Shown here: positions 12,521 through 33,961 of the stretch, in pieces
How the letters are laid out: each line of letters opens with the position of its first letter
Position numbering within the stretch: the stretch's first letter is position 1
Origin: Clostridia bacterium
GTDB taxonomy: Bacteria; Bacillota_A; Clostridia; Christensenellales; Aristaeellaceae
NCBI GenBank assembly: GCA_017430945.1
Contig: JAFRMB010000029.1
Coordinates: 1 to 36,618 of the forward strand
Reading direction: 5' to 3'
DNA length: 36,618 nt
Notes under the pieces: generated by a model
What the model was told of the DNA's origin: nothing
The model's database searches: none
Seen by the model: only the letters and a program-made list of their open reading frames with translations
Position numbers and translations under genes: made by a program

Positions 12521-12573
12521 TGCGTGCGATTTGATACTTTAACACAATAAAGCTGTAAAACGGCGAACGCCCG

Positions 12574-12582
12574 TGTTATAAT
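12574..12582 (+). promoter_or_regulatory. Extended -10 promoter before the phenylacetate-CoA ligase gene
   Basis: TGTTATAAT at 12574-12582, 34 bases upstream of the ATG. It lies in the 95-base gap after the first ligase and could express the second ligase and the ACT gene independently of the T-box. Confidence 0.55.
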
Positions 12583-12615
12583 ACAGGCATGAATCCGCCG
12601 AAGGGAATGAAGCAT

Positions 12616-13935: not shown

Positions 13936-13948
13936 GGAGGGATCGAAT

Positions 13949-14389
13949 ATGTTCATCAAGCAGATTTCCATATTCCTCGAGAACAACCCGGGCACGCTGC
14001 GCGAGATGACCGAAGTGCTGGGCAAGGGCGGCATCGATCTGTTGGCGTTGTCCATCGCCGATACGCAGAATTTCGGCATCGTTCGCGTGATCATACACAG
14101 TGACCAGATCGAAAACGCCATGAGGCTGCTGAAGGAAGCTGGCTACATCGCGAAGATCAACCATGTCATCTGCGCTGAGGTGCCGGATCGCCCGCTGGGT
14201 CTGTGCGAGCTGCTGGCGGTCATCGAGCAGGCGGGCCTGTCGGTGGAATACATGTACTCCTTCCTGCGCAAGTCCGGCGAGGGATGCGCGAACATGATCC
14301 TGCGCCTGAGCGACGGCCGCAAGGCCGCGCAGGTGTTCAGCATGCAGAACATCACCATGCTGAGCCAGGAGACGATCGACCAGCTGTGA
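13949..14389 (+). CDS. Tandem ACT-domain protein
   Basis: A 146-residue protein made of two ACT modules: residues 1-66 (FIKQISIFLENNPGTLREM, then VRVIIHSDQIENAMRLL) and 70-140 (VICAEVPDRPLGLCELLAVI). ACT domains bind amino acids and usually act as allosteric or regulatory modules. No catalytic or DNA-binding domain is attached. Stand-alone ACT proteins frequently accompany phenylacetate-CoA ligase genes, and here it follows one by 13 bases with a strong GAGGAGG site. A plausible inference is that it senses an aromatic amino acid and modulates the ligases; nothing in the sequence proves the ligand. Confidence 0.88.
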   Translation: MFIKQISIFLENNPGTLREMTEVLGKGGIDLLALSIADTQNFGIVRVIIHSDQIENAMRLLKEAGYIAKINHVICAEVPDRPLGLCELLAVIEQAGLSVEYMYSFLRKSGEGCANMILRLSDGRKAAQVFSMQNITMLSQETIDQL

Positions 14390-17879: not shown

Positions 17880-17894
17880 AGCTCATTCTCCTGT

Positions 17895-19778
17895 CTATCT
17901 CTTCTCGATGGCGTTCTTCTTGCAGGTGCTGATGCATGCGCCGCACTTGACGCACTTGGAGGCGTCGATGGCGAACGAGGCCAGCTTGTGGCCGGGCGCG
18001 ATGTAGTCCGTGCGGGTGATGCAGCTCGTCGGGCAGCCCTTGGCGCACAGGCCGCAGCCGATGCACTTGTCGGGATCGATGTGATACTCCATCAGCTTCT
18101 TGCACACGTGGGCGGGGCACTTCTTGTCCACGATATGGGCAAGATACTCGTCCTTGAAGTGTGAAAGGGTAGAGGTGATGGGGTTGGCAGCGGTCTGGCC
18201 CAGAGCGCACAGGGAGTTGGCCTTCACGGTCTTGCTCAGCTCATCCAGGTCTTCCAGGTCCTGCATGGTGCCACGGCCTTCGGTGATCCGGGTCAGGATC
18301 TCGAGCATACGCTTGGTGCCGATACGGCAGGGAGAGCACTTGCCGCAGGATTCGTCGCAGATGAACTCCATATAGAACTTCGCGACGTCGACCATGCAGT
18401 TGTCCTCGTCCATGACGATGGCGCCGCCGGAGCCCATCATGGAGCCCTTGGCTACCAGGTTGTCGAAATCGATGGGCTCGTCCAGGAATTCGGTGGTCAG
18501 ACAGCCGCCGGAGGGGCCGCCGGTCTGGATGGCCTTGAACTTCTTGCCGCCGGGGATGCCGCCGCCGATGTCGTAGATCAGCTCGCGCAGCGTGGTGCCC
18601 ATCGGCACCTCGACGAGGCCGACGTTGTTGACCTTGCCGCCCAGCGCGAACACCTTGGTGCCCTTGGAGCGCTCGGTGCCCACGGATGCGAAGCTCTCGG
18701 CGCCCTCGCGCAGAATGAAGGGGATGCAGGCCAGCGTCTCAACGTTGTTGATGATGGTGGGCTTGCCCCAGAGGCCCTTCACGGCCGGGAACGGCGGGCG
18801 GGGACGCGGCATGCCGCGCTTGCCCTCGATGGAGTTCAGGAGCGCAGTTTCCTCGCCGCAGACGAAAGCGCCGGCGCCGAGGCGCAGATGGCAGTCAAAG
18901 CTGAAGCCGGTACCAAGGATGTTCTCGCCCAGCAGACCCAGCTCCTTGGCCTGACGGATGGCGATGCGCAGGCGGTTGACAGCGATCGGATACTCCGCGC
19001 GCACGTAGAAATAGCCGTTCTGCGCGCCGATGGCGTAACCGGCGATCATCATGCCTTCGATCACGGCGAGGGGATTGCCCTCCAGGATGGAGCGGTCCAT
19101 GAACGCGCCGGGGTCACCCTCGTCACCGTTGCAGACCACATACTTTTCTTCGCTCTGGGAATTGTAGGCGAACTGCCATTTGCGGCCGGTGGGGAAGCCC
19201 GCGCCGCCGCGGCCGCGGATGCCGGAGGCCAGCACCTCGTCGATCACCTTCTGGCGATCCATGGAAAGCGCCCGCTTCAGGCCCTGGAAAGCGCCCATGC
19301 CCAGCGCCTCTTCGATGTTCTCGGGATCGATGACACCGCAGCCGTGCAGCGCGACGCGCCGCTGCTTTTTGTAGAAGTTGATGTCGTCCTGCTTCTTGAC
19401 CTTCTCGCCGGTGGCGGGGTCTTCATACAGCAGCCGATCCACCACGACGCCGCCCAGGATGTCCGTTTCGACGATCTCCTCGACGTCAGTGATCTTCACC
19501 AGCCTGTACAGGGTATCCTCAGGATAGATCTTAACGAAAGGACCCTGGGAACAGAAACCGAAGCAGCCCACCTGATTGACGGTGGCCTTGTCCTCCGCGC
19601 CCTTCTCCTTGAGCACCTCGACGAAGCGCTCGCGGATCTCGGCGGAGTTGTTCGAGAGGCAGCCCGTGCCGCCGCAGAGCACGATGTGCCGCTTGCCGTC
19701 TGCACCGGCGATCTTGTCGTCCAGACACTTGGTGCACGCGGTGATTTTATCGTTCAGCTTGTCAACACTGTTAATCAT
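17895..19778 (-). CDS. hndC: Hydrogenase NADH-binding flavoprotein subunit (HndC/HydB, NuoF-like)
   Basis: A 627-residue subunit homologous to NuoF of complex I, carrying FMN and the NAD(H) site of a soluble bifurcating-type hydrogenase. An N-terminal thioredoxin-like [2Fe-2S] domain has C35, C40, C72 and C76. The NuoF core shows GRGGAGFPTGRKW (FMN and NADH binding) and GDEGDPGAFMDR. ESCGKCSPCR holds a [4Fe-4S] cluster. Two further [4Fe-4S] motifs end the protein (CIGCGLCAKGC and CVKCGACISTC), as in HydB of Thermotoga. Fifteen bases separate its start from the upstream hndA stop. The separate HndB gene known from four-subunit enzymes is absent; its thioredoxin-like domain is present here as the N-terminus. 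Confidence 0.95.
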   Translation of the reverse strand: MINSVDKLNDKITACTKCLDDKIAGADGKRHIVLCGGTGCLSNNSAEIRERFVEVLKEKGAEDKATVNQVGCFGFCSQGPFVKIYPEDTLYRLVKITDVEEIVETDILGGVVVDRLLYEDPATGEKVKKQDDINFYKKQRRVALHGCGVIDPENIEEALGMGAFQGLKRALSMDRQKVIDEVLASGIRGRGGAGFPTGRKWQFAYNSQSEEKYVVCNGDEGDPGAFMDRSILEGNPLAVIEGMMIAGYAIGAQNGYFYVRAEYPIAVNRLRIAIRQAKELGLLGENILGTGFSFDCHLRLGAGAFVCGEETALLNSIEGKRGMPRPRPPFPAVKGLWGKPTIINNVETLACIPFILREGAESFASVGTERSKGTKVFALGGKVNNVGLVEVPMGTTLRELIYDIGGGIPGGKKFKAIQTGGPSGGCLTTEFLDEPIDFDNLVAKGSMMGSGGAIVMDEDNCMVDVAKFYMEFICDESCGKCSPCRIGTKRMLEILTRITEGRGTMQDLEDLDELSKTVKANSLCALGQTAANPITSTLSHFKDEYLAHIVDKKCPAHVCKKLMEYHIDPDKCIGCGLCAKGCPTSCITRTDYIAPGHKLASFAIDASKCVKCGACISTCKKNAIEKR

Positions 19779-19793
19779 GCCGTCACACCCTCC

Positions 19794-20276
19794 TTACTTA
19801 GCCATCTCATAGTACTGGTCGATGACCTCGGGAACCTTGCCGGGCGTCATCTTGGGATACACCTTGCCGTTGATGCTTACCGCCGGGGCGATGCCGCAGG
19901 CACCGATGCAGCGAAGGGCATCCAGCGTGAACATTCCGTCCGGGGTGGTCTGACCGGGCTTGATCTTCAGGATCTCAGAGAACTTGTCGATCACGTTCTG
20001 CGCGCCCTTGACGTAGCACGCCGTGCCGAGACAGCAGCCGATCACATACTTGCCCTTCGGGGTCAGAGAGAAGAACGAATAGAAGGTTACCACGCCGTAG
20101 ATCTCCGCTACGGAAATGCCGGTCTCCTCGGATACGATCTCCTGGACCTCCAGCGGGATATAACCGTACTCATTCTGTATGTCACTCAGAATCATCATCA
20201 GCGGCGTCTTCTCGTCCTTGTAGCGACCGCAGATCTCTCGAATCATCGCGACAGCTTCAGCCTTCAAGCCTCCCAT
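19794..20276 (-). CDS. hndA: Hydrogenase [2Fe-2S] subunit (HndA/HydC, NuoE-like)
   Basis: A 160-residue NuoE-type thioredoxin-fold subunit that passes electrons between the flavoprotein and the catalytic subunit. The [2Fe-2S] ligands are C82 and C87 (CLGTAC) and C123 and C127 (CIGAC), in the family spacing. The N-terminal helical part (LMMILSDIQNEYGYIP) is typical. The start is ATG 20276 after GGAGGAG; an in-frame extension to 20336 covers the leader and promoter and is not used. It is the first gene of the three-gene hnd operon, with hndC 15 bases downstream. Confidence 0.94.
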   Translation of the reverse strand: MGGLKAEAVAMIREICGRYKDEKTPLMMILSDIQNEYGYIPLEVQEIVSEETGISVAEIYGVVTFYSFFSLTPKGKYVIGCCLGTACYVKGAQNVIDKFSEILKIKPGQTTPDGMFTLDALRCIGACGIAPAVSINGKVYPKMTPGKVPEVIDQYYEMAK

Positions 20277-22860: not shown

Positions 22861-24141
22861 TTACACCGCGCGCTTGCGATGCGCCGCACACCACTCGTAA
22901 AGCGTGACAGGATCACCGCCGCGCGTGACGGGCCGGCCGTCGATATCTGTCCTGCAGAGATCGAGAAGCGCATACACCCACGCAAAATGGCCCATGTAGT
23001 GTGCGCCGCAGTCGGGATCGACGATCTCGTCGTACAGGGAAAAGTGGACATCCTCAGAGCCGGCATGCTTCAATCGCTCATGGATCGGCAGGGATGTCGT
23101 CCGGATGTCCACGATGGGATCCGAGGCGCAGTGCACGAACCAGAGCGGCATGTGTCCAAGCCGTCGGATGTCGTCGTCGACCAGCCAGTCGTTTTCGAAT
23201 GCCGCGCAGACCGGGAAGGCGGCGGCAAACCACTCCGGGTGATCCAGACAGAGGCGGAGGGTCATGTAGCCGCCGTTGGAGCAGCCGCCGACATAGATCC
23301 TCTGCAGGTCGACATTGGGGTGGCGGTCACAATAAACCTCGAGCAGCGCCATGACAGCGTCTGTATAGATGCTTCGCCCGTCGCGGCTGACGTGCGCGGG
23401 ACTGCCGTCGTCCAGCCACCAGGTCGGACACTGAGGCAGCAGTACATGCGCGCCGCCGAATTTCGATTGGACCGATGGGCTCAGAAAATGCGTGACGCGC
23501 ATGCTGCCCAAGAGAAAGCCGGGATCTGTGCCGCCGCTGCCGGCACCGTGGAGCCACAGCAGCAGGGGATGGGCGCGATCGTCGTCAGGCGCATACCAGG
23601 CATAGGTGAGCGCGTGCGATGCGCCGTCGAAGACACCCGTGGAAAAACCCGCGTCGTCCGGATGGAGGACGGCGCCCGCACGGTTCCAGACCTCGCCGGT
23701 GCGTTCGTTGCGCACTGTATAGGCGCAGTCTGCCCAGCATTTCAATTCTCCCTTGAAGGACTTCGGATCGGTGTAGTAGGGCTGGGCGAGCGCGAGCCTC
23801 GGTCCGACGGTCATCGACAGCGTCGTGAACCGGCCGGCATCGTCGGGAATGCCCTGAGCATCCGAAAGCCAGGCGGCCGTGACGGTGCGGTCGCCTTCAT
23901 CGATCCAGGCGCCGTCCGCATTGCAGCGGACGACGGAGACCGTATAGGCGGCCGCGTCATCGCACTGCGTGGGCAGGACGATCCGATCGTAGCTGCTGCC
24001 CCAGTTGAACACCGACCGTATGAGGGTATAAGGAGCGGCCGGCGCAAGGTCCCGGTAAGTCGCGCGTGTGCGGGGTGCAGCGATGCCGGTAGTCGGATCT
24101 TCTGCGCCGCCTTTGGATGTGCTCCAGTCGTGATGCAGCAT
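22861..24141 (-). CDS. Alpha/beta-hydrolase esterase with a beta-rich N-terminal domain
   Basis: A 426-residue serine hydrolase. The C-terminal half (about 185-400) shows the oxyanion segment HGAGSGG (198-204), the nucleophile Ser288 in GCSNGG, a likely acid at Asp341 or Asp345, and His385 in GHFAW. The order and spacing suit PHB-depolymerase-like or feruloyl-esterase-like enzymes. The first 180 residues are beta-rich, reminiscent of the Ig-like domain in front of some bacterial esterases. There is no signal peptide, so it should be cytoplasmic. Start ATG 24141 is five bases after GGAGG. It is the last gene of the leftward ABC transporter operon, 116 bases after a permease, so it may act on an imported ester. 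The natural substrate is unknown. Confidence 0.8.
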   Translation of the reverse strand: MLHHDWSTSKGGAEDPTTGIAAPRTRATYRDLAPAAPYTLIRSVFNWGSSYDRIVLPTQCDDAAAYTVSVVRCNADGAWIDEGDRTVTAAWLSDAQGIPDDAGRFTTLSMTVGPRLALAQPYYTDPKSFKGELKCWADCAYTVRNERTGEVWNRAGAVLHPDDAGFSTGVFDGASHALTYAWYAPDDDRAHPLLLWLHGAGSGGTDPGFLLGSMRVTHFLSPSVQSKFGGAHVLLPQCPTWWLDDGSPAHVSRDGRSIYTDAVMALLEVYCDRHPNVDLQRIYVGGCSNGGYMTLRLCLDHPEWFAAAFPVCAAFENDWLVDDDIRRLGHMPLWFVHCASDPIVDIRTTSLPIHERLKHAGSEDVHFSLYDEIVDPDCGAHYMGHFAWVYALLDLCRTDIDGRPVTRGGDPVTLYEWCAAHRKRAV

Positions 24142-24164
24142 GTTTGCCTCCATGTGTCCGGATC

Positions 24165-24196
24165 CCTGCCGATCCCCGTCGGATCCGATCGGCAGG
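24165..24196 (-). other. Hairpin just upstream of the esterase start
   Basis: Perfect 10-bp arms CCTGCCGATC / GATCGGCAGG with a 12-nt loop, ending 24 bases before the ATG. It could affect translation or mRNA stability. Confidence 0.4.
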
Positions 24197-24210
24197 ACAT
24201 CGATATGATC

Positions 24211-24244
24211 GCAAAGAAGCAAGGCGTTCGCCCTGCTTCTTTGC
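24211..24244 (-). terminator. Hairpin after the second permease (possible partial terminator)
   Basis: Arms GCAAAGAAGCA / TGCTTCTTTGC with an inner GGCG-TT-CGCC. There is no clean T-run after it on the minus strand, so partial termination between the transporter and esterase is inferred. Confidence 0.45.
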
Positions 24245-24257
24245 ATGGTCTCTTCGA

Positions 24258-25280
24258 TCAACCGTTCGAGCGCGCCTTTTTGAAGATGCGGCTGAACACG
24301 GAGTCGCGCTTCAGACCGCTCATCTTATAGCTGGAGTACATGTCGATGGCGACGGCGGCGATGATGATGAGGCCCTTGATGAGGTCGTGGTACACCGATG
24401 CCACGCCGAGCAGTTGCAGGCCGTTCGTCAGTATGCCGATCAACAGCGCGCCGAACATGGCGCCCTGGATGGTGCCCGAGCCGCCGCGCAGCGATACGCC
24501 GCCCAGCACGATGGCGGCCAGCACGTCGTTCTCGTAGCCCTGCGCCTGGTTCGCGGAGGCCTGCAGGTTCATGCTCGAGAGCACGAGGCCCGACAGCGCA
24601 CCCATGAAGCCGGAGATCACATAGGCGATGATGATGACTTTCCGCACATGGATGCCGGAAAGCTTAGAAGCCTCGCGGTTTCCGCCCACGCAGTAGAGAT
24701 GCCGGCCGTAGACCGTCTTGTTCAGCATGATGTAGGTGAACAGGAAGCACGCAGCGAGGATGTACACCGGCATCGGCACGCCCAGGGGACGCGCGCCGCC
24801 GATCCACTTGAAGGCGTCGGCCTTCATGACGTTGATCAGCTGGTTGCCGGTGACAGTCTGCACGAAGCCGTACAGGATCTGGGACGTCGCCAGCGTCAGA
24901 AGGAACGCGGGAATGTCGAACCGGCAGAGCACGAGACCGTGGAACAGGCCGCTGACCATGCCGATGAACAGCCCCAGTACGACGCCCAGCAGCACGCTTT
25001 GGGCAGAAAAGCCGCCATGCGCGATGGTGGTGCAGCACACGGCGCCGGCCAGCGCGGCCGTGCCGGAGACGGTGCGGTCGATGCCCGCCAGCAGGACGGG
25101 GAAGGTCGCGCCGCAGATCATGATGCCCTGGAGCGAAATGGCGTAAAGGATGTTCAGAAAGTTGTTCGCCGCAAGGAATTTGCCCGGCAGCGCGATGGTG
25201 AATACGAGGCACATGACGATCAGTATGATCAACTGCCTGAACTTATAGGCCTGCCTGAGCCAGCTCTTGTTCTCATTCAT
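24258..25280 (-). CDS. ABC sugar importer permease (RbsC/YjfF/YtfT-like), second permease
   Basis: A 340-residue membrane protein of the BPD_transp_2 (CUT2) family with about eight to ten hydrophobic segments. Typical features are AISLQGIMICGATFPVLLAGIDRTVSGTAAL near the N-terminus, the NREASKLSGI loop (about 200-210) that contacts the ATPase, and the AIVLGGVSLRGGSGTIQGAMFGAL segment. The start follows the ATPase stop within 3 bases, with a GGAGG site inside the end of that gene. With the other permease it probably forms a heterodimeric pore, as in the YtfT-YjfF galactofuranose importer. The substrate is unknown. Confidence 0.9.
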   Translation of the reverse strand: MNENKSWLRQAYKFRQLIILIVMCLVFTIALPGKFLAANNFLNILYAISLQGIMICGATFPVLLAGIDRTVSGTAALAGAVCCTTIAHGGFSAQSVLLGVVLGLFIGMVSGLFHGLVLCRFDIPAFLLTLATSQILYGFVQTVTGNQLINVMKADAFKWIGGARPLGVPMPVYILAACFLFTYIMLNKTVYGRHLYCVGGNREASKLSGIHVRKVIIIAYVISGFMGALSGLVLSSMNLQASANQAQGYENDVLAAIVLGGVSLRGGSGTIQGAMFGALLIGILTNGLQLLGVASVYHDLIKGLIIIAAVAIDMYSSYKMSGLKRDSVFSRIFKKARSNG

Positions 25281-25283
25281 GCG

Positions 25284-26791
25284 TCACGCCTCCTTTCCCT
25301 GTGCGACGATGCCCGAGGAGGTCAGCAGGATGTCCTCCTGAGTGGCGACGCCGTCGTTGAATTCGTGGATGATGTGGCCTTCCTTCATCACGATGATGCG
25401 GTGTGCCACGCGGAGCACTTCGGATACGTCCGAGCTGACCAGCAGTACCGCGACGCCCTGAGAGGCCAGTTCGTCGATGAAATTGTAGATCTCATCCTTC
25501 GCGCCGATGTCGATGCCCACCGTCGGCTCGTCGATCAGGATCATCTTCAGGTCGCGCGTCAGCCACTTGGCCAGTACGGCCTTTTGCTGGTTGCCGCCGG
25601 ACAGGTTGCCCACGGGCACCAGTGGGTTGGCGGGGCGCATGTCCACGAGCTGCAGGCACGCTTGCCGAGTTCCTTCTCCTTGGCACGCTGCACGAAGCCA
25701 TGGCTGCTCATCGTGTCGTAGTTGGTGCTGGCCACGTTCTTTTCTACGGAAAGCAGCGGTATGAAACCCTGTGTGCGGCGGTCCTCCGGGATCAGGCCAA
25801 AGCCCTTCCGGATGGTCGCGTCGGTACCGCTGGACAGCTTCTCGCCGTTGAACAGGATCTCGCCCGAGTCATACTTGTCCGCACCGAATATGGCGCGCAG
25901 GATCTCTGTGCGGCCGGAGCCGACCAGACCGGTCAACACCAGCACTTCGCCTGCCTTGACCTCGAAGGAGATGTCTTCGAACCGGCCGAGGCTTGAGAGG
26001 TGCCTGACCTCGAGCACGGTGGGGTTCGCGGAGACGCACAGGTTCCGGGAGGCGGTCGCGTCGCTGAGTTCTTTGCCGATCATCATGCGCACGATCCTGT
26101 CGGGCACGATGTCATCGTGCTCCACGACGCCCACGAGGCTGCCGTCCCTGAGCACGGTGATACGGTCGGACAGCGCGAAGACCTCCTCGAGGCGGTGGGA
26201 GATATAGATGATGGATACGTTGCGCTCCCTGAGCTGGTGGATGATCTTGTAGAGCATCTCGCTCTCCTTGGCGGAGAGGGAAGCGGTGGGCTCGTCCATG
26301 ACGATGAGCCGAGCGTTGGTCGAAAGGGCCTTCAGGATCTCGACCATCTGCTTCTGCGCCACAGACAGTGTTTCGATGATGTCATCCGGGTTCAGCGGGA
26401 AGTCAAAGCGCTTGATGAGCTCCTCGACCTCTTTGCGCATGGCTTTCTTCTGGAGCACGCCGAACCGGTGCTTTTCCTTGTTGAGCAGGATGTTCTGCGT
26501 GACGGAGAGCGTGGGGATCAGGGAGAATTCCTGGAAGATGCAGGCGATGCCCAGCTTGCTCGCGTCCTCGCGGGATTCGATCTCGACGGGATTGCCGTCG
26601 AACAGGATCTCGCCGCCGTCCTTCGGATAGACGCCCGTCAGGATCTTGATCAATGTGGATTTGCCCGCGCCGTTTTCGCCCAGCAGCGCGTGGACCTCGC
26701 CGGTGCGCACGCTGAAATCGACTTCCTTCAGCGCTTTGACATGGGAGAATACCTTGACGATGCCCTTCATTTCGACGATGTTTTCGCTCAT
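25284..26791 (-). pseudogene. Sugar ABC importer double ATPase (RbsA/MglA/YtfR type), frameshifted
   Basis: A CUT2 ATPase with two ABC halves that appears broken by a one-base loss. The first part (26791 to about 25660) has Walker A GENGAGKST, signature LSVAQKQ, Walker B IVMDEPTASL and the start of the degenerate second half (LTGLVGSGRTE, IPEDRRTQG). The frame then leaves the family sequence at about 25645-25665 and stops at 25559. The other frame carries on with LVDMRPANPLVPVGNLSGGNQQKAVLAKWL, ILIDEPTVGIDIGAK and the normal C-terminus to 25284. The span is 1508 bases; one added base gives 502 residues, the usual family length. The start overlaps the upstream permease stop as ATGA. All other residues look intact, so this may be a sequencing error or a recent mutation. 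Confidence 0.85.
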
Positions 26792-27804
26792 TTGATCACC
26801 GCCATTTCGCGCTTCATGGCGCCGCGCCTGCGCGTGCGCTCAGTCATGAATTCGTTGTAGAACGCGTCGAACACCAGCATCAGCACGATGACGATGCCCG
26901 AGAGCAGCTGCTGGGTCTCCGTGGGGAAGCCGAACTTCAGTATGCCGTTTTCCAGCACGCGCATGAACAGAACGCCGATCACGGTGCCGATGATGTCGCC
27001 GCGCCCGCCGGAGAAAGCGCAGCCGCCGATGACGGTCGCGGAGATGGCTTTGAACTCATAGCCGACGCCGCCGCCGGGCTCTGCGGAGCGGTTCTTACCG
27101 AGGAAGAACAGGCTGGCCACGAAGGCACACAGAGCGGTGATCGTGAAGGCAAACATCTTGGTCTTGACGAAGCTGATGCCCGTGACTTCCGCCGAATTGC
27201 GGTTCGCGCCGATGGCATACAGGTTCGTGCCCTGCTTGGTGTTCTTAAGGACGAACTGTACGATGACGGCCATCAGTATGAACGCGATCGTACAGTAATA
27301 CATACCGTCCAGCGGGCCGGAGCCGATCCTGCCGCCGAACCACTTCACGATGGGGTGTTTGATGGAGACGGTCGTCAGGCCGCCATACTTGTCGTGGATG
27401 GCGAAAAGGTACTGCGCGCCGACGAACACGAAGCGCGTGGACAGCGTGGCGATGAAGTCCGGGATCCTCAGCACGGCGACGACGAATCCGTTGAACAGGC
27501 CGCACACCAGGGATACTGCCAGCGTGATCACCAGGATGATCGGCATGGGCAGCTCGGTGTAGTACAGCATGTTGCAGATGAGCATACAGTTAAGGCCCAT
27601 CAGCGCGCCGCAGGACAGGTCGTTGCCGCCGGTGATGATGACCAGCGTGACGCCGATGGCCAGAAGGCCGACCAGCGAGCACTCCCTGAGCATGTTGTAG
27701 ATGTTCTGGGACGTGAAGAACTTGTCCGACGTCAGTCCGAACACCAGCAACAGCAAGATCAGCAGACCAAATGAGATCAGTCTGCGCAAGGTCTCTTGTC
27801 TCAC
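26788..27804 (-). CDS. ABC sugar importer permease (RbsC/YtfT-like), first permease
   Basis: A 338-residue CUT2 permease with about eight to ten membrane segments. It shows LLAIGVTLVIITGGNDLSCGALMGL near the N-terminus, the cytoplasmic NRNSAEVTGI coupling loop and ATVIGGCAFSGGRGDIIGTVIG, all typical of RbsC-like proteins. The start is probably GTG 27804, nine bases after GGAGG; a longer frame to 27855 begins with TTG and lacks a site. The stop overlaps the ATPase start by four bases. It lies after the binding protein gene and an intercistronic hairpin. It differs clearly from the second permease, which implies a heterodimer. Confidence 0.9.
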   Translation of the reverse strand: MRQETLRRLISFGLLILLLLVFGLTSDKFFTSQNIYNMLRECSLVGLLAIGVTLVIITGGNDLSCGALMGLNCMLICNMLYYTELPMPIILVITLAVSLVCGLFNGFVVAVLRIPDFIATLSTRFVFVGAQYLFAIHDKYGGLTTVSIKHPIVKWFGGRIGSGPLDGMYYCTIAFILMAVIVQFVLKNTKQGTNLYAIGANRNSAEVTGISFVKTKMFAFTITALCAFVASLFFLGKNRSAEPGGGVGYEFKAISATVIGGCAFSGGRGDIIGTVIGVLFMRVLENGILKFGFPTETQQLLSGIVIVLMLVFDAFYNEFMTERTRRRGAMKREMAVIK

Positions 27805-27872
27805 TTTCCCATTCCTCCCCTCGCGCGCACCGTTGCAGGCGACGCGCTTTTGCAAGCCGTTATATGAATAAT

Positions 27873-27895
27873 GGGTGGCGGCAGGGCCGCCACCC
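27873..27895 (-). terminator. Intercistronic hairpin between binding protein and permease genes
   Basis: Perfect 10-bp stem GGGTGGCGGC / GCCGCCACCC with a 3-nt loop, 23 bases after the binding protein stop, with only a weak T-tract. Such hairpins often lower expression of downstream transporter genes relative to the binding protein. Confidence 0.6.
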
Positions 27896-27918
27896 GAAAC
27901 GGGTCAGATCCGATCAGA

Positions 27919-28881
27919 TTACCAGCGCATGTCGGCCGTGATTTCGGCGACGTTCTCGGCGGTAACGGTGATCGGGGGCATCTTGATGACCGGAGTGGCC
28001 TCCCAATCGGAGATGTCGATGTCGGAGCCGATGTACATCATGAGCAGACGCAGAGCGGTCGCGCCCTGATCATACACGTTGGTGTACACAGTGCCGGTGA
28101 TGATGCCTTCCTCGATGAACTCCAGGGCCTTGGTCTCGCCGTTGGCGCCCCAGATCTGGATGCCTTCGACACCGGCAGCCTGGCAGGCCATGCCAGCGCC
28201 TTCGGCCATCTGGTCGTTGTGGGCGAACACGGCGTTGATCTGATCCGGATAGGCGGTCAGGAAGTTGGCCATGGTGGTGTTGGCCTTCTCCATGTTCCAG
28301 TCGGCAGCCTGCTCCTCGAGGATGGTGATCTCGGGATAGTTGGCCAGGGTATCCTGGAAGCCGGCTTCCAGGTTGATGCCGCGGGCTGCGCCGGGAGCAG
28401 CCTGGATGACGACGACGTTGCCCTTGCCGCCCAGAGACTCGGCGATGTTGTTCGCGATGACCGCACCGGCCTCGTAGTCGGTCATGGAGACCAGGCCGTG
28501 GCAGACCGCGTCAGAGTCCATGTTGATGCAGACGACCGGGATGCCGGCAGCCTCAGCATCCTCGATGGCAGGGGTCAGGCTGGCCTTGTTGTAGGTCTGG
28601 ATGATGATGCCATCATACTCCTGGGCGATGCAGTCGTTCACCAGGGTGATCTGCTTGTCAGCGCTCTTCTCACCGTCGTAGATGTCCACGGTGATGTTGC
28701 CCCAGTAGGCAGCCTCGTTCTTGATACCGTTGCCCCAGCCGGTGCAGTTGGCCTCGGTGGCGGCGGTGGCGATCCAGGCCACGCGCATCTCATCCTTGTA
28801 GGGATCCTTTTCGGCGGCAAAAGCAGAGAACATGCTCATCGCGAGGGTCAGAATCAGGACGAGTGCAAAGATCTTCTTCAT
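27919..28881 (-). CDS. ABC importer substrate-binding protein (RbsB/YtfQ-like, Peripla_BP_4)
   Basis: A 320-residue exported binding protein for a sugar or sugar-like ligand. The signal peptide is MKKIFALVLILTLAMSMFSAFA, with cleavage probably after AFA (residue 22). There is no lipobox cysteine, which is unusual for a Gram-positive binding protein, so it might be released or retained by the transporter. The mature part shows the type 1 periplasmic fold with DGIIIQTYNKASLTPAI, INMDSDAV, a VFAHNDQMAEGAG segment and IWGANGETKALEFI. Start ATG 28881 follows AGAGAGG; a longer in-frame start at 28911 is less likely. It is the first gene of the leftward operon and diverges from the FGGY kinase gene. 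Confidence 0.92.
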   Translation of the reverse strand: MKKIFALVLILTLAMSMFSAFAAEKDPYKDEMRVAWIATAATEANCTGWGNGIKNEAAYWGNITVDIYDGEKSADKQITLVNDCIAQEYDGIIIQTYNKASLTPAIEDAEAAGIPVVCINMDSDAVCHGLVSMTDYEAGAVIANNIAESLGGKGNVVVIQAAPGAARGINLEAGFQDTLANYPEITILEEQAADWNMEKANTTMANFLTAYPDQINAVFAHNDQMAEGAGMACQAAGVEGIQIWGANGETKALEFIEEGIITGTVYTNVYDQGATALRLLMMYIGSDIDISDWEATPVIKMPPITVTAENVAEITADMRW

Positions 28882-28963
28882 TCCAGTCAACCTCTCTATC
28901 ATTATTTCCACGCTGCGGCAGCCTGCAAAAGACAGTGCCTGACCGGCCGCGTGATCTGCTCCG

Positions 28964-28993
28964 ATATTAGCATAGCGACTTTTGGCTCGTCAA
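28964..28993 (-). promoter_or_regulatory. Promoter of the ABC importer operon
   Basis: On the minus strand, TTGACG, 18-bp spacer and TAATAT with an upstream TGC (extended -10), 82 bases before the binding protein ATG. Confidence 0.7.
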
Positions 28994-29003
28994 GCGAATG
29001 AGG

Positions 29004-29037
29004 GAAAAGTGCACATTTTCTCAAAATGCGCTTTTTC
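29004..29037. promoter_or_regulatory. Inverted repeat between divergent promoters, candidate operator
   Basis: GAAAAGTGCACATTTT, then CTC, then AAAATGCGCTTTTTC: an imperfect long inverted repeat with a perfect core CATTTT-CTC-AAAATG. It lies directly upstream of the importer -35 and about 70 bases upstream of the kinase -35, a fitting place for a site of the SorC-type regulator encoded nearby. Confidence 0.5.
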
Positions 29038-29106
29038 TTAAATACATGATCCTGACAGGAGACCGGGGACGGGACATGGGAATCTGTGCAAATTAGCGAA
29101 CGTGAA

Positions 29107-29135
29107 TTGAAATCCTGCCCGCTTCATGTTAATAT
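29107..29135 (+). promoter_or_regulatory. Promoter of the kinase-regulator operon
   Basis: TTGAAA, 17-bp spacer and TAATAT with an upstream TGT (extended -10), 42 bases before the ATG at 29177. Confidence 0.75.
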
Positions 29136-29176
29136 GGATGCAAATGATGGATGCCTGAACGGTCGGAGGAGAAGAC

Positions 29177-30646
29177 ATGCAGATCCTGGTCATCGATATA
29201 GGAACTACCAGTGCACGCGGCATACTCTACGGTCCGGGCGGCAGTGCTTTGGATATGCACAGCGTGTCCACGCCGCTGCTCCACGATCCCGACACCGGGT
29301 TCATCGAGCAATCGCCGGATGTCTACCGCAGGGCGATCTCGGTGATCTGCCGCAGGATCGCGCGGACACACCAGATCTACGCGATCTCGGTCACGGCGTT
29401 CCGCTCGGCGCCGACGCTGGTCGACCGTAGCGGCGAACCGATGACCAACTTCATCATGTGGCAGGATACCCGCAACAGCGAGATCTGCCGAAGGCTCCAG
29501 CCGATGGCACCGGCGATCTACGCGACCAGCGGTGCGCGCCTGAACACCGTGTTTACCGCCAGCAAACTCACATGGTTCCGCGAGCATCAGCCTGAGATGT
29601 GGTCGCGGGCCTACAAAGCGATGATCGTGCCTGATTTCGTGGTCAACTTCATGACGGGCGAATTCGCGACCGACTATACGTACGGCAGCCGGACACATCT
29701 CATGGATATCCGCTCGCTGCGGTGGGACGAGGAAATGTGCCGCGTGTTTTCGATCGACATGGACAAGCTTTGCGAGCTGCGCAGCCAGGGCACGGTCTTC
29801 GGAAAAGTCAATGCGGCCTTCGCCGGCATGACCGGCATACGGGAGGGCGTTCCGGTCATATCGGCCGGAGGAGACCAGCAGTGCGGCGCACTGGGCCTCG
29901 GCGTGATGGACGACTCGAAGATCGAGGTCAACTCCGGCACGGGATCCTTCATCATATCTCTGGCTGATCGGCCGATCCTCGAGAATGACGCGGTCATATG
30001 CAATGTGGCCAGTGTGCCCGGCATGTATACGCAGGAAATGAACGTCATCGCAAGCGCATCCGCTGTCAACTGGCTCATACGGGAGTTCTTTCCGGAGCAC
30101 TGGGGCAATCCGCCGGACTTCGATGCCGTCAACCGCATCGCGGAGAAGACGCCCGTGGGTGCCCGCGGGCTCTGCGCTGTGCCGCACTTCCAGGGCTGCG
30201 GCAGCCGGAGCTGGGACCCGGAGGCGCGCGCGATCTTTGCGGGCTTCTCTCTGAGCACCGAGCGGGGAGACATGATCCGGGCGCTTTACGAGGGGATCGC
30301 CGCGGAGATCGCCAAGAGCATCGACGCGCTGCCGGAGGCATGCCGTAAGGCATCGTCGATAGCGGTGGCTGGCGGCCTGTCCCGCTCCGACATCTACAAC
30401 CGGATCCTGTGTGACATGACGGATCGCACGCTCGTGCGCGGCGAAAACGAACAGGCCACCGCGCTCGGCGCTTACATCTCTGCGGCGGTGGCGCTTGGCG
30501 TTTACGGCGGATACCGGGAGGCGTACGATTCGGTCAGGCACCGGGAGGGCGATGTCATCTATGAGCCGGACGCCGGGAACGCCGCTTTCTACCGCGCATA
30601 CGGGGAGCGGGCGGAGCGGCTCTATCGCGCGGACAGCCGGGCGTGA
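29177..30646 (+). CDS. FGGY-family carbohydrate kinase
   Basis: A 489-residue sugar kinase of the FGGY family (xylulokinase, gluconokinase, L-xylulose kinase and others). The N-terminal phosphate-binding loop is IDIGTTSARG (about 6-15), the substrate region includes IMWQDTRN (93-100), the catalytic base is probably Asp233 in AGGDQQCGALG, and the second ATP motif is NSGTGSF. The C-terminal adenosine motif is IAVAGGLSRSDIYNRILCD. The start is ATG 29177 after GGAGGAG. The regulator gene follows 39 bases on. The neighbouring UlaG homologue suggests that the substrate is L-ascorbate, 3-keto-L-gulonate or a related sugar acid, but this is inference. Confidence 0.88.
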   Translation: MQILVIDIGTTSARGILYGPGGSALDMHSVSTPLLHDPDTGFIEQSPDVYRRAISVICRRIARTHQIYAISVTAFRSAPTLVDRSGEPMTNFIMWQDTRNSEICRRLQPMAPAIYATSGARLNTVFTASKLTWFREHQPEMWSRAYKAMIVPDFVVNFMTGEFATDYTYGSRTHLMDIRSLRWDEEMCRVFSIDMDKLCELRSQGTVFGKVNAAFAGMTGIREGVPVISAGGDQQCGALGLGVMDDSKIEVNSGTGSFIISLADRPILENDAVICNVASVPGMYTQEMNVIASASAVNWLIREFFPEHWGNPPDFDAVNRIAEKTPVGARGLCAVPHFQGCGSRSWDPEARAIFAGFSLSTERGDMIRALYEGIAAEIAKSIDALPEACRKASSIAVAGGLSRSDIYNRILCDMTDRTLVRGENEQATALGAYISAAVALGVYGGYREAYDSVRHREGDVIYEPDAGNAAFYRAYGERAERLYRADSRA

Positions 30647-30685
30647 AGATCTGACAGGAACGGACACAGAAGGGAGGCCATGCGG

Positions 30686-31645
30686 ATGGACAAGGGGCGG
30701 AGAGACCAGGAATTCATGAGTATCATCGCCTATCTGTATTACTATGCGGATATGAACCAGTCGGACATCGCCGACCGGCTGTTCCTGTCGCGCTCCACCG
30801 TGTCCAGGCTCATCAAAAAGGCGCGGCAGAGCGGGGTGGTCGAGCTCAAGATTAACGAGCCGTGGGACCGCGACCTGTCGATGGAGGACAAGCTGCGCAC
30901 TTGCTTTTCGATCAAGAGCGCCAGGGTGCTGTGTCTCCCCGAAAGCATGGGCAAGGAAGCGGTGCTGGATATGCTGGGCCAGGCGGCGACGTTCTACGTC
31001 AGCTGCAACGTTCAAAACCAGTCCATACTGGGCATGAGCTGGGGAAACACCATCTCTCACGTCAACAACACGATCACGACCATGCAGAACATACCGCTGA
31101 CCGTCGTGCCCATCATGGGGACGATGACCTATCCGGATACCAACCCGGAGAGCCTGAAGCTAAGCCAGCGCTTTGCGAGGATCTACGGCGGGCGCTTCTT
31201 CCCGCTGGATGCGCCGCTCTTCGCCTCGTCGAAGGAGCAGCTCGCCGAACTGCTGGCCGATCCCGGCATCGCGGAAGCCATCAATACGTCCCGCAACGCG
31301 GATCTCATCATCACCAGTGTCGGTTCCATCGAGGATCGCAGCTGGGACCGCGTATTCGGCATGGACCGCCTGTCCCGTTTGAAGGAGATCGGCTGTGTTG
31401 GCCATATCGGGGGGCATTTCATCGACATCAACGGGCATGAGATCGACGGCACCTATAAGGATCTGCACATCGGGCTGTCGCTCGACGAGATACGGGCCAA
31501 TGAATATGTGATGTGTGTGGCGGATTCGCCCAGGAAGGCGGAAGCTGTCTACGCTGCGCTGCGCGGCGGACTCGTCAACACGCTGATCGTCACCTATCCA
31601 CTGGCGCAGCGGATCATGGAGATCGTGCAGGAGCGCAGCCTGTAA
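30686..31645 (+). CDS. SorC-family sugar-responsive transcription regulator
   Basis: A 319-residue regulator. The N-terminal helix-turn-helix (about residues 23-53) reads NQSDIADRLFLSRSTVSRLIKKARQSGVVEL. The remainder is the SorC sugar-phosphate-binding domain, a relative of the DeoR/GlpR and sugar isomerase fold, with SWGNTISHV, VPIMGTM, LIITSVGSIEDRSW and a late GCVGHIGGHFID segment. Start ATG 30686 lies 8 bases after AGGGAGG; the in-frame ATG at 30680 has only a 2-base gap. It probably controls the two divergent transcripts beside it and the ulaG promoter, in response to a phosphorylated intermediate. Control of these genes is inferred from position and nearby palindromes. Confidence 0.88.
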   Translation: MDKGRRDQEFMSIIAYLYYYADMNQSDIADRLFLSRSTVSRLIKKARQSGVVELKINEPWDRDLSMEDKLRTCFSIKSARVLCLPESMGKEAVLDMLGQAATFYVSCNVQNQSILGMSWGNTISHVNNTITTMQNIPLTVVPIMGTMTYPDTNPESLKLSQRFARIYGGRFFPLDAPLFASSKEQLAELLADPGIAEAINTSRNADLIITSVGSIEDRSWDRVFGMDRLSRLKEIGCVGHIGGHFIDINGHEIDGTYKDLHIGLSLDEIRANEYVMCVADSPRKAEAVYAALRGGLVNTLIVTYPLAQRIMEIVQERSL

Positions 31646-31658
31646 CAGGCGCTCGTAA

Positions 31659-31678
31659 AATGAGAAATATTTCACATT
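31659..31678. promoter_or_regulatory. 20-bp palindrome upstream of the ulaG promoter, candidate operator
   Basis: AATGAGAAAT followed by ATTTCACATT; nine of ten half-site positions are symmetric. It lies 12 bases upstream of the ulaG -35. The TGAGAAA core also occurs (minus strand) in the inverted repeat at 29004-29037. Confidence 0.55.
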
Positions 31679-31690
31679 GGCGCGTCGATA

Positions 31691-31719
31691 TTGACAGGGC
31701 ACACGAAGGATCCTAAAAT
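31691..31719 (+). promoter_or_regulatory. Consensus promoter for ulaG
   Basis: Perfect -35 TTGACA, 17-bp spacer and -10 TAAAAT, 62 bases before the ulaG ATG. It shows ulaG can be expressed separately from the kinase and regulator. Confidence 0.75.
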
Positions 31720-31780
31720 ACGGGTATCAGCCGGGCATGGAGCGCGGCGATCCTGAAAAAGAGGAAGCGAGGAAAAAGAC

Positions 31781-32884
31781 ATGAGCAAGATTTCTGAGAT
31801 GACCCGGGAGAGCTGGATCATGAGCACCTTCCCAGAGTGGGGGACCTGGCTGAACGAGGATATCGAGAACACGGTGGTCCCCGAGGGCAATGTGTCTATG
31901 TGGTGGCTCGGCTGCACCGGCATCTGGATGAAGACGCCGGGCAATACCAACATCACCATCGATTTCTGGAATGGGAACGGCAAGCGTACGCACGGCGACA
32001 ACCGGATGAAGGTCGGACACCAGATGGCCAACATGTGCGGCGGTCGGCTGATGCAGCCCAATCTCAGGAACATCCCGTTCGTGTGCGATCCCTTTGCTTT
32101 CAAACATGTGGACGCCGTGCTGGCGACGCACTATCATCAGGACCACATGTCAGCCGAGTGGGCGGCGCATGTGATCAACAGCGGCATGACCACGACGGAT
32201 GAGAGCGGCAAAGAGATCCCCGTGCCATTCATCGGCCCGCTCAAGAGCGTGGAGACCTGGATGAAGTGGGGCGTGCCCGAGGAGCGCTGCCGCGTGGTGC
32301 GCCCGGGAGACGTCATCCGCATCGGCGATATCGAGATCGTGGTGCTGGATTCCTTTGATCGCACCTGCATCGTCACGACCGATTCGACCGGCCCCGACCG
32401 CGAGGAACTGACCGGGAAATGCCCGACAGATATGGATGACAAGGCGGTCAACTACCTCCTCAGGACGCCCGGCGGCAACATCTACCACTCCGGCGACTCT
32501 CACTTCTCCATATATTTTGCCAAGCACGGCAAGGATTACGACGTGGACGTCGCCTTCGCGTCGTTCGGCGAGAACCCGGTGGGCATGCAGGACAAGATGA
32601 CCTCCATCGACGTGCTGCGCATGGCGGAGAACCTCCGCTGCAAGGTCGTCATCCCGATCCACTGGGACGTCTGGACCAACTTCGCGCCGGACTGCGAAGA
32701 GATCCGCCTGCTCTACGATTTCAAGAAGGACCGCAACGAGTATCGCTTCCATCCGTTCTTCTGGCAGGTGGGCGGAAGCTATACCTACCCCCAGGATGCC
32801 GACAAGCGGTATTTCCATCATCGCCGCGGATTCGAGGATTGCTTCGAGCAGCCGCAGAACATCCCCTTCCGCAGCTGTCTGTGA
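31781..32884 (+). CDS. ulaG: UlaG-type L-ascorbate-6-phosphate lactonase homologue
   Basis: A 367-residue metallo-beta-lactamase-fold lactonase. It resembles E. coli UlaG as I recall it along nearly its whole length: an opening ITRESWI..STFPEWG type segment (here MTRESWIMSTFPEWGTW), MWWLGCTGIW, DFWNGNGK, the metal motif THYHQDH (H117, H119, D121, H122), a MDDKAVNYL segment, IYHSGDSHFS, GENPVGMQDKMTS and FWQVGGSYT near the end. UlaG opens the lactone of L-ascorbate 6-phosphate to 3-keto-L-gulonate 6-phosphate. The start ATG 31781 follows GAGGAAAAAG. In E. coli the substrate comes from a PTS; no PTS, UlaD, UlaE or UlaF gene is present in this window. Enzyme family is secure and exact substrate is likely but not proven. 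Confidence 0.9.
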   Translation: MSKISEMTRESWIMSTFPEWGTWLNEDIENTVVPEGNVSMWWLGCTGIWMKTPGNTNITIDFWNGNGKRTHGDNRMKVGHQMANMCGGRLMQPNLRNIPFVCDPFAFKHVDAVLATHYHQDHMSAEWAAHVINSGMTTTDESGKEIPVPFIGPLKSVETWMKWGVPEERCRVVRPGDVIRIGDIEIVVLDSFDRTCIVTTDSTGPDREELTGKCPTDMDDKAVNYLLRTPGGNIYHSGDSHFSIYFAKHGKDYDVDVAFASFGENPVGMQDKMTSIDVLRMAENLRCKVVIPIHWDVWTNFAPDCEEIRLLYDFKKDRNEYRFHPFFWQVGGSYTYPQDADKRYFHHRRGFEDCFEQPQNIPFRSCL

Positions 32885-32914
32885 TGTCAAAACATTGGGA
32901 AGAGAGGGATGACC

Positions 32915-33961
32915 ATGAAGGCGACCAAGCAGGTGATCGGGCACCTTGAAAAATGCTACGCGCTGGGTATGTTCCACTACGACGGCGTGGATCACGTGGC
33001 CGTGGCGGCAGAGAAAAAGGACCCCTGCTATACCTTTGATCTTCAGGGCAGGCAGTGCGATACCCTGTGGGAGGGGCCGGGCGGTGTGATGACCGTCACA
33101 CAGGTGCCGGGGCAGCCCATCGTGATGGCGACGGAGAAGTTCTATTCCCCGAACGATTCCGCCGAGGGAAAGATCGTCTACTATCGAAAGGCGGACGGCA
33201 GGTGGCAGCGCGAGCTGCTTTGCGAGCTTCCGTTCGTTCACCGCTTCGGGATCCTGAAGCGCGGCGGCGCGTGTTATCTGATCGCCTGTTCGCTCAAGAG
33301 CGCGCACGCGTTCAAGAACGACTGGACTTGCCCGGGCCGCGTGTGGGTCGCGCAGCTGCCGGAGGATGTGACGCAGTTCAACGCCGAGAATCCGCTGAAG
33401 CTCGAGGCGCTGGTCAGCGGCCTGACGCGGAACCACGGCTTTTCGATCTGCCATGAGAACGGTGCGGATTTTGCGGTGGTCGCCAGCGACAATGGCGTCA
33501 TCCGGGTCGACCCGCCCTGCGCCCCCGGCGGCGAATGGACGGTGGAGCAGCTGCTCGACGCGCCGACCAGCGACGTGCTATACCTGGACTTCGACGGCGA
33601 CGGCGAGCGCGAGCTTCTGACGCTCTCTCCATTCCACGGCGACACGCTGGCGATCCACAAGCGCATCGACGGCGCTATGCGGGAAGTGTACCGGCATGAA
33701 AAGGTGATGCCGTTCCTGCACGCCATCTGGGGCGAGGAGATCGACGGGCGCGTCTATGCCTTCATCGGCAATCGCGAGGGCGACCGGGATCTGATCGCGC
33801 TATACTGGGATGGCGAGCGGTATACCTTCGATACGCTCGATCAGCACGCGGGTGCTGCCAATGTGCTGTGCGTGCGCTCGGGAGAGAAACACCTGTTGTT
33901 TGCCGCCAACCGCGAAACGGACGAGATCGCCCTGTATACGCTTGAGAGCGGCGCGTGCTGA
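32915..33961 (+). CDS. Protein of unknown function, probable beta-propeller
   Basis: A 348-residue protein that I cannot assign to a named enzyme. It is made of repeated short beta segments of about 45-60 residues (for example FGILKRGGACYLIACSL, FSICHENGADFAVVAS, VLYLDFDGDGERELLTLS, HAIWGEEIDGRVYAFIG and NVLCVRSGEKHLLFAAN), as expected for a propeller. DFDGDGERE resembles the calcium-binding FG-GAP/VCBS loop. There is no signal peptide or membrane segment, so it is probably cytoplasmic, which is uncommon for FG-GAP proteins. Start ATG 32915 has AGAGAGGG upstream; an in-frame ATG at 32909 directly abuts that site. It follows ulaG by 30 bases and is the last gene of its transcript, so a role in the same pathway is likely. 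Confidence 0.75.
   Translation: MKATKQVIGHLEKCYALGMFHYDGVDHVAVAAEKKDPCYTFDLQGRQCDTLWEGPGGVMTVTQVPGQPIVMATEKFYSPNDSAEGKIVYYRKADGRWQRELLCELPFVHRFGILKRGGACYLIACSLKSAHAFKNDWTCPGRVWVAQLPEDVTQFNAENPLKLEALVSGLTRNHGFSICHENGADFAVVASDNGVIRVDPPCAPGGEWTVEQLLDAPTSDVLYLDFDGDGERELLTLSPFHGDTLAIHKRIDGAMREVYRHEKVMPFLHAIWGEEIDGRVYAFIGNREGDRDLIALYWDGERYTFDTLDQHAGAANVLCVRSGEKHLLFAANRETDEIALYTLESGAC

Follow-up and report, generated by a model that had tools for sequence, protein, structure and literature searches.

A candidate kinase-fed L-ascorbate pathway around UlaG in a Clostridia bacterium

How can the lactonase UlaG be supplied with L-ascorbate 6-phosphate where no ascorbate phosphotransferase system (PTS) is encoded beside it? 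The question is raised by a locus at 22.9–34.0 kb of a 36,618-nucleotide stretch, here called the window, which is contig JAFRMB010000029.1 of a gut or rumen Clostridia bacterium of the family Aristaeellaceae (assembly GCA_017430945.1). UlaG-route ascorbate breakdown has so far been described as PTS-fed and UlaD-dependent. In E. coli the substrate of UlaG is L-ascorbate 6-phosphate, and the pathway needs UlaD between UlaG and UlaE, as described in one report (PMC3219644). The locus consists of two divergent gene groups. A CUT2-type ATP-binding cassette (ABC) importer and an esterase-like protein lie on the minus strand, and an FGGY kinase, a SorC regulator, UlaG and a 350-residue protein that we call HYP lie on the plus strand. 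Homologues of ulaA–F and of the yia genes, searched for at 1e-6, are not found in the window.

On balance we lean towards a PTS-independent L-ascorbate (ula) pathway made up of importer, kinase, UlaG, HYP (replacing UlaD), UlaE and UlaF. The route that we infer from gene content, conservation, co-occurrence and a predicted fold would run as follows. The CUT2 importer would take up unphosphorylated L-ascorbate or a very close relative, and the FGGY kinase would phosphorylate its terminal hydroxyl to give the 6-phosphate otherwise made by the PTS. UlaG would open the lactone to 3-keto-L-gulonate 6-phosphate, which HYP would decarboxylate to L-xylulose 5-phosphate in the place of UlaD. The remaining steps to D-xylulose 5-phosphate would fall to UlaE and UlaF, whose genes presumably lie outside the window in its genome (they are in the same locus in the related genome G546). 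SorC would regulate the locus. The decarboxylation by the modelled HYP is the least certain step of the pathway, and we place it a little short of an even chance.

UlaG and the kinases encoded beside it

UlaG is encoded at 31,781–32,884 (plus strand). By its score it is a predicted member of the NF008688 equivalog, the L-ascorbate-6-phosphate lactonase family: residues 1–367 align to positions 1–355 of the model with 587.3 bits, against a cutoff of 306. The protein matches the E. coli UlaG structure 2wyl with 480 bits and is about 55% identical to enterobacterial UlaG. The HxHxDH metal motif, the HSGDS motif and His281 are conserved in all 98 aligned UlaGs (those of the window and E. coli among them), and His117, His119, Asp121, His122, Asp226 and His281 are present in every one of them (E. 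coli numbering). The initial annotation had described an almost full-length match with an HxHxDH motif, and this description holds.

Relatives of the locus were collected from GTDB contigs in a scan with the UlaG of the window as query; of 386 loci the best 80 were used, with UlaGs 85–94% identical. By their titles they are mostly Bacillota, many from the rumen or gut. Genes in unannotated loci were called with a home-made caller, and families are clusters of the called proteins. UlaG is present in all 80 loci, HYP in 68, UlaE in 63, UlaC in 62, UlaA in 61, a DeoR-type regulator (named by eye) in 60, UlaB in 59 and UlaF in 48, and the next commonest family in 27. By these counts, most close UlaG relatives belong to an ascorbate PTS operon that contains HYP. 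A kinase is present in 15 loci, and only one (L060) has both a kinase and UlaA. Among the 19 loci without UlaA, 14 have an FGGY or PfkB kinase. The other five are L001, L031, L036, L052 and L057; L057 has a kinase fragment at the contig edge, and in L031 UlaC lies beside the contig end.

PTS-type and kinase-type loci interleave on a UlaG tree of 62 rows (27 kinase-type, 34 PTS-type and E. coli). There are 13 label changes over the 61 labelled rows, at least five of which are forced by well-supported branches. The tree omits the odd-numbered PTS loci below L130, L060 (both types), L129 and the short loci L089–L118. The window UlaG is 85–88% identical to the UlaGs of PTS-type loci. Given this identity and the interleaving, the simplest reading is that both locus types feed the same substrate.

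A separate ascorbate PTS elsewhere in the genome, with its own lactonase, would speak against a kinase-fed supply, as was pointed out at the outset. UlaA had no match in 16 of 17 genomes whose UlaG locus has no PTS, and was found in the remaining one, G017. UlaF was matched in all 17 by a search that cannot separate UlaF from AraD, and UlaE in all 27 relatives searched. Sixteen of the 17 genomes have a labelled kinase or kinase fragment (in G699 on a contig without UlaG) and G012 has neither; this set differs from the 17 genomes used for the kinase best-match test below.

The kinase gene (29,177–30,646, plus strand) encodes both FGGY domains, PF00370 (FGGY_N, 187.4 bits) and PF02782 (FGGY_C, 104.1 bits), each above its cutoff. 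None of the 12 NCBIfam models listed for named FGGY equivalogs reaches its cutoff for this protein; the best is XylB, with 257 bits against 380. For the best-match test we picked 17 of the 23 genomes in which the UlaG locus has a labelled FGGY kinase. In all 17, the best match to the window kinase, out of 126 matches, is the UlaG-locus kinase. UlaG-locus kinases score at least 243 bits against the window kinase and the remaining 109 matches at most 210. Were the top rank to fall with equal chance on any match of a genome, this result would have a probability of about 1e-14. In an unrooted tree, a branch supported at 100/99 splits 23 kinases of UlaG or HYP loci from 13 paralogues, taken from the 109 other matches, and eight E. 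coli kinases (AraB, XylB, GlpK, FucK, RhaB, LsrK, YgcE and LyxK). The fragment kinases of L057 and G307 were omitted. Among the 23 is the kinase of L122 (G699), whose short contig carries HYP, UlaE and UlaF and no UlaG. An earlier tree without paralogues gave the same split at 96/97.

These comparisons argue for the existence of a distinct UlaG-linked FGGY kinase group. LyxK lies on the opposite side of the 100/99 branch, which disfavours a LyxK-type activity; an ascorbate kinase activity is not thereby proven. In the family of G007, the window kinase is matched in 2 of 150 genomes at 1e-90, too rarely for statistics. A PfkB-type kinase adjoins UlaG instead of the FGGY kinase in L002–L005 (a few kb off in L004); it thus seems that a kinase was recruited to this role on two or more occasions. 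The PfkB kinase of L003 is nearest to sugar-kinase and 2-keto-3-deoxygluconokinase models, below their cutoffs.

The importer, kinase, SorC regulator and UlaG, a set whose recurrence in relatives the initial annotation had proposed to check, do occur together again in L009 and L125. Identities in L009 are 72–89%, with the kinase at 63% and the regulator at 51%; an HYP-like protein only 33% identical is placed between the kinase and the regulator. L125 with L177 (G546) keeps the divergent layout (kinase 53%, regulator 28%, UlaG 82%, HYP 30%). Downstream of the importer, on its strand, G546 also encodes UlaE (57% to SgbU) and UlaF (66% to SgbE), together with a class II aldolase, a UPF0261 protein and a protein of the metallo-beta-lactamase fold. 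The initial interpretation is partly supported as a whole. Its central suggestion, that importer and kinase replace the PTS as the supplier of UlaG, finds good support in the interleaving of locus types, the separate kinase group, the missing UlaA in 16 of the 17 genomes and the UlaE and UlaF within the G546 locus.

HYP, a predicted propeller protein that accompanies UlaG

HYP is encoded as a separate protein at 32,909–33,961 (plus strand), 24 bases downstream of UlaG by coordinates, and has no Pfam or NCBIfam match at 1e-3. The initial annotation took up neither HYP nor the lack of UlaD; of all neighbours, HYP proved to tell the most about the locus. We took an even sample of 299 genomes from the family of L026, called Lachnospiraceae after the title of L026. 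Of these, 28 have UlaG and 34 have HYP, and no UlaG genome lacks HYP (Fisher p 7e-34); the 28 include the sample centre G029 and G049, both already in the 80-locus scan. Among the 80 loci, HYP is present in 61 of the 63 that have UlaE and in all 48 that have UlaF. In the class of G029 it occurs in 7 of 245 genomes, a sample in which UlaG was not searched.

Searches for ulaD, ulaE and ulaF beyond the window had also been proposed. Run in relatives, they gave the UlaE and UlaF matches described above, and a hidden Markov model of UlaD matched in none of the 80 loci. Weak UlaD matches occur in five of 50 locus genomes (50 of the 80); the six proteins concerned all pass the 3-hexulose-6-phosphate synthase cutoff and were dismissed as UlaD. 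The UlaD model exceeds its cutoff in none of the 299 family genomes. Of 14 controls, one is over the cutoff and seven match, E. coli among the seven. UlaD matches are present in 7 of the 28 UlaG genomes and comprise ten proteins. For nine of them, found in six genomes, 3-hexulose-6-phosphate synthase is the best-scoring model; seven exceed its cutoff of 200, and the other two reach 185 and 188 bits. The tenth (47%), from G358, has UlaD as its best model, with 248 bits where the cutoff is 250, which makes G358 the sole one of the 28 to encode a UlaD-like protein.

A plasmid collection gives the opposite picture. At least 25 of 26 UlaG records also carry UlaD, among the 60 of 193 UlaD records listed; the UlaG record without UlaD among those listed is NZ_CP149363.1, a 37-kb Salmonella record. 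The 26 records were defined by a UlaG identity of at least 37%, and two are fragments and several chromosome-sized. HYP has no match in the 72,556 records of the collection. The distributions of HYP and UlaD are nearly opposite. Given the co-occurrence with UlaG and the absence of UlaD, HYP is the only widely conserved unassigned protein of the 80 loci, and decarboxylation is the unassigned step.

The HYP model is an all-beta propeller, and its nearest fold match is aldos-2-ulose dehydratase (AUDH; PDB IDs: 4a7k, 4a7y and 4a7z). The list of fold matches is mostly generic propellers, of which only AUDH stands clear; families outside the list may match too. Over the propeller, the predicted HYP structure has the same fold as AUDH. 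The two proteins are 12% identical with no detectable sequence relation, their presumed reactions differ, and AUDH has about 880 residues against the single domain of 350 in HYP. AUDH performs zinc chemistry. The invariant HYP residues His111, His176, His271, Asp222 and Asn318 are at or beside strand starts of the model. A sequence search of HYP against the PDB gave no match. Membership of HYP in the UlaD/orotidine 5'-monophosphate decarboxylase suprafamily was considered and rejected, since there is no NCBIfam or Pfam match and the model is all-beta and not a TIM barrel. HYP is thus a candidate for a nonorthologous replacement of UlaD by a propeller protein.

Other HYP contexts were also seen. 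Two are from the HYP genomes without UlaG: in L184 (G445), a divergent HYP lies with a UlaG-like protein (35% to E. coli UlaG), a SorC-like regulator and CUT2 importer genes, perhaps a sister pathway for another lactone, and L186 has HYP with UlaF and no UlaG. In G358 (L134, L135 and L136) UlaG is of the E. coli kind, UlaA is present, an esterase resembles that of the window at 47%, and HYP is on a separate contig.

Importer, regulator and neighbouring genes

The importer genes are all on the minus strand. They encode an extracytoplasmic sugar-binding protein (27,919–28,911; PF13407, 179 bits; 85% to L009), permease 1 (26,788–27,855; PF02653; 77% to L009), an ATPase (25,284–26,791) and permease 2 (24,258–25,280; PF02653; 72% to L009). 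The divergent arrangement of a CUT2 importer with two permeases, an FGGY kinase and UlaG is as first annotated, with the Pfam cutoffs passed. One correction is needed for the ATPase, which is in two overlapping frames, 25,559–26,791 and 25,284–25,646, each with PF00005. As the homologue in L009 is intact (502 residues), we consider the window copy to be frameshifted; the split, with its overlap at 25,559–25,646, is either an assembly error or a real recent defect.

A likeness to the YtfQRT-YjfF galactofuranose importer, which is also of CUT2 type with two permeases, had been proposed and is not borne out. With the NCBIfam models, YtfQ scores 81 bits against a cutoff of 510, YtfR 362.5 (one ATPase piece) against 850, and, for the two permeases, YtfT 104 and 132 against 535 and YjfF 111 and 139 against 363. 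Other CUT2 models outscore the Ytf/YjfF models, nearly tied in the case of the ATPase piece (AraG 368, YtfR 362.5). We dismissed this identity because the components are far under all four cutoffs. Many CUT2 relatives of the binding protein score alike, and a substrate call is impossible from this comparison.

The regulator (30,680–31,645, plus strand) is of the SorC/DeoR type with a sugar-binding domain (PF04198, 171 bits), and resembles 8r7y and LsrR structures. Short inverted repeats at 31,659–31,678, upstream of ulaG, and at 29,006–29,036, in the 265-base gap between the divergent groups, may be regulator sites. The esterase-like protein (22,861–24,153, minus strand) has an EstA immunoglobulin-like domain and an alpha/beta hydrolase domain (PF18435 and PF02230, above cutoff) and resembles the esterase 3doh. 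Its start at 24,153 is from the home-made gene caller; the longest open reading frame reaches 24,261. We regard it as accessory; it does not adjoin permease 2 in the relatives L178 and L177.

Some sister loci carry glycosidases. L042, L044 and L057 have GH3 and a CUT1 importer, and L004 has an apparent beta-glucoside PTS with GH1, both named by eye; the GH3 of L042 and one Dpp-type binding protein of a kinase-type locus were checked. Since importers vary and some come with glycosidases, some loci may take up conjugates or a related lactone. Glycosidases adjoining kinase-UlaG genes could be a sign that glucosides of ascorbate, or conjugates like them, are taken up. Two small proteins in a pair are encoded near the UlaG-kinase genes in L002 (one of them SnoaL-like), L006 and L007, with a related small protein in L003, and L002 and L003 have a large NADH:flavin oxidoreductase.

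The G+C content of the window is about 61%. Elsewhere in it, by eye from translations, three adjoining minus-strand genes at 16,113–20,246 resemble a bifurcating [FeFe] hydrogenase (HydA, HydB and HydC-like), and an AMP-forming ligase, a phenylacetate-CoA-ligase-like protein and a small ACT-domain-like protein are in a row at 10,883–14,389.

Known systems, rival explanations and meaning

The proposed pathway shares with the E. coli ula regulon (UlaABC, UlaG, UlaD, UlaE and UlaF) UlaG itself, the UlaE and UlaF of relatives and the presumed intermediates. In the window, an ABC importer and a kinase stand in the place of the PTS, UlaD is missing, HYP is added and the regulator is SorC, not UlaR. 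The E. coli yiaK-S/sgb route (TRAP transporter, YiaK, LyxK, SgbH, SgbU and SgbE) is also PTS-independent, uses an FGGY kinase and leads to the same pentulose phosphates. Its entry point is 2,3-diketo-L-gulonate, and it is not known to use UlaG. The window kinase falls outside the LyxK group, and neither YiaK nor SgbH is encoded in the window. No report of a kinase-fed UlaG entry or of a UlaD replacement was found in a literature search by titles and abstract openings, with subscription papers outside its reach, so novelty is not proven.

Several observations weigh against the proposed pathway. The window is without UlaD, UlaE and UlaF, and its ATPase gene is frameshifted. In G017, UlaA is on another contig (C52) than the kinase-type UlaG and has a UlaE match a few kb away; as the two are close together, G017 probably holds a second, PTS-type locus. 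Kinase-type loci use diverse importers: CUT2, CUT1, Dpp-type, TRAP and an apparent beta-glucoside PTS (L004). At UlaG residue 282 (E. coli numbering), 85 of the 98 aligned proteins have Trp and four have His, E. coli among those four, so that the UlaG substrate may be an altered one. The ulaABCDEF unit is reported for all UlaG genomes compared, Gram-positives included (PMC3219644), and the present genome sample does not match this. A full called HYP is missing from 12 of the 80 loci, eight of which are on stretches shorter than 9 kb; L005, L054, L057 and L059 lack it on stretches of at least 12.9 kb. Six of the 34 HYP genomes have no UlaG at 1e-50 and HYP contexts there are varied, from which HYP may have a wider role. 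The HYP profile A1 does not detect AUDH at E values up to 10, and AUDH is described as a dehydratase and not as a decarboxylase. HYP and UlaD are not strictly exclusive, because G358 has both, on separate contigs. Finally, 3-hexulose-6-phosphate synthase, which is related to UlaD and may be promiscuous, is encoded in some of the genomes.

Part of this evidence would be explained if the kinase route is right and HYP is not the decarboxylase. HYP would then have another UlaG-linked role, for example in dealing with dehydroascorbate or with an isomer or damaged form, while an unrecognised or promiscuous enzyme would carry out the decarboxylation, unless this is spontaneous. This fits the HYP genomes without UlaG, where some contexts look unrelated, the two proteins of G358, the dehydratase fold match and the synthase-type UlaD relatives in 6 of the 28 UlaG genomes. 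It has to contend with the nearly opposite distributions of HYP and UlaD, and no other unassigned family is common enough in the 80 loci (the next has 27). We give it a real, if minority, chance. The locus might instead handle another ascorbate-like lactone or keto-acid (an isomer, the aglycone of a glycoside or an ester) by the same kinase-lactonase-epimerase logic. The wide range of importers in kinase-type loci, including CUT1 with GH3 and the L004 system with GH1, the window esterase as a hint at conjugates, and the variation at UlaG residue 282 all favour another substrate. The 85–88% identity of the window UlaG to PTS-type UlaGs and their interleaving on the tree do not, and we find this rather unlikely.

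That the kinase acts on 3-keto-L-gulonate or L-xylulose, like LyxK in the yiaK-S route, with some other role for UlaG, we judge improbable. LyxK is of the same FGGY family, and L002 and L140 hold TRAP components like YiaN and YiaO, but the UlaG-locus kinases separate from every reference kinase, LyxK included, neither the window nor any of the 80 loci received a YiaK label, and the pattern is one of a kinase swapped for the PTS with UlaG kept. The absence of UlaE and UlaF from the window would suit chance neighbours, that is, an importer and kinase for an ordinary sugar with UlaG and HYP adjoining by accident. This is very improbable and largely refuted by the repeated synteny, as importer, kinase, SorC and UlaG are together again in L009 and L125 with kinases of 63% and 53% identity.

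Should the kinase-fed pathway with HYP as decarboxylase be correct, many gut and rumen Clostridia would degrade vitamin C or close relatives of it by means of a decarboxylase with a new fold, and in part of them the entry step would differ as well. The kinase and HYP both lack a fitting name today: the kinase is nearest to xylulokinase, below its cutoff, and HYP has no family. The varied importers and the glycosidases of sister loci suggest conjugate uptake by some strains. Gene-based predictions of microbial vitamin C loss would then change, because these organisms escape a search for UlaD, and the kinase types escape one for the PTS.

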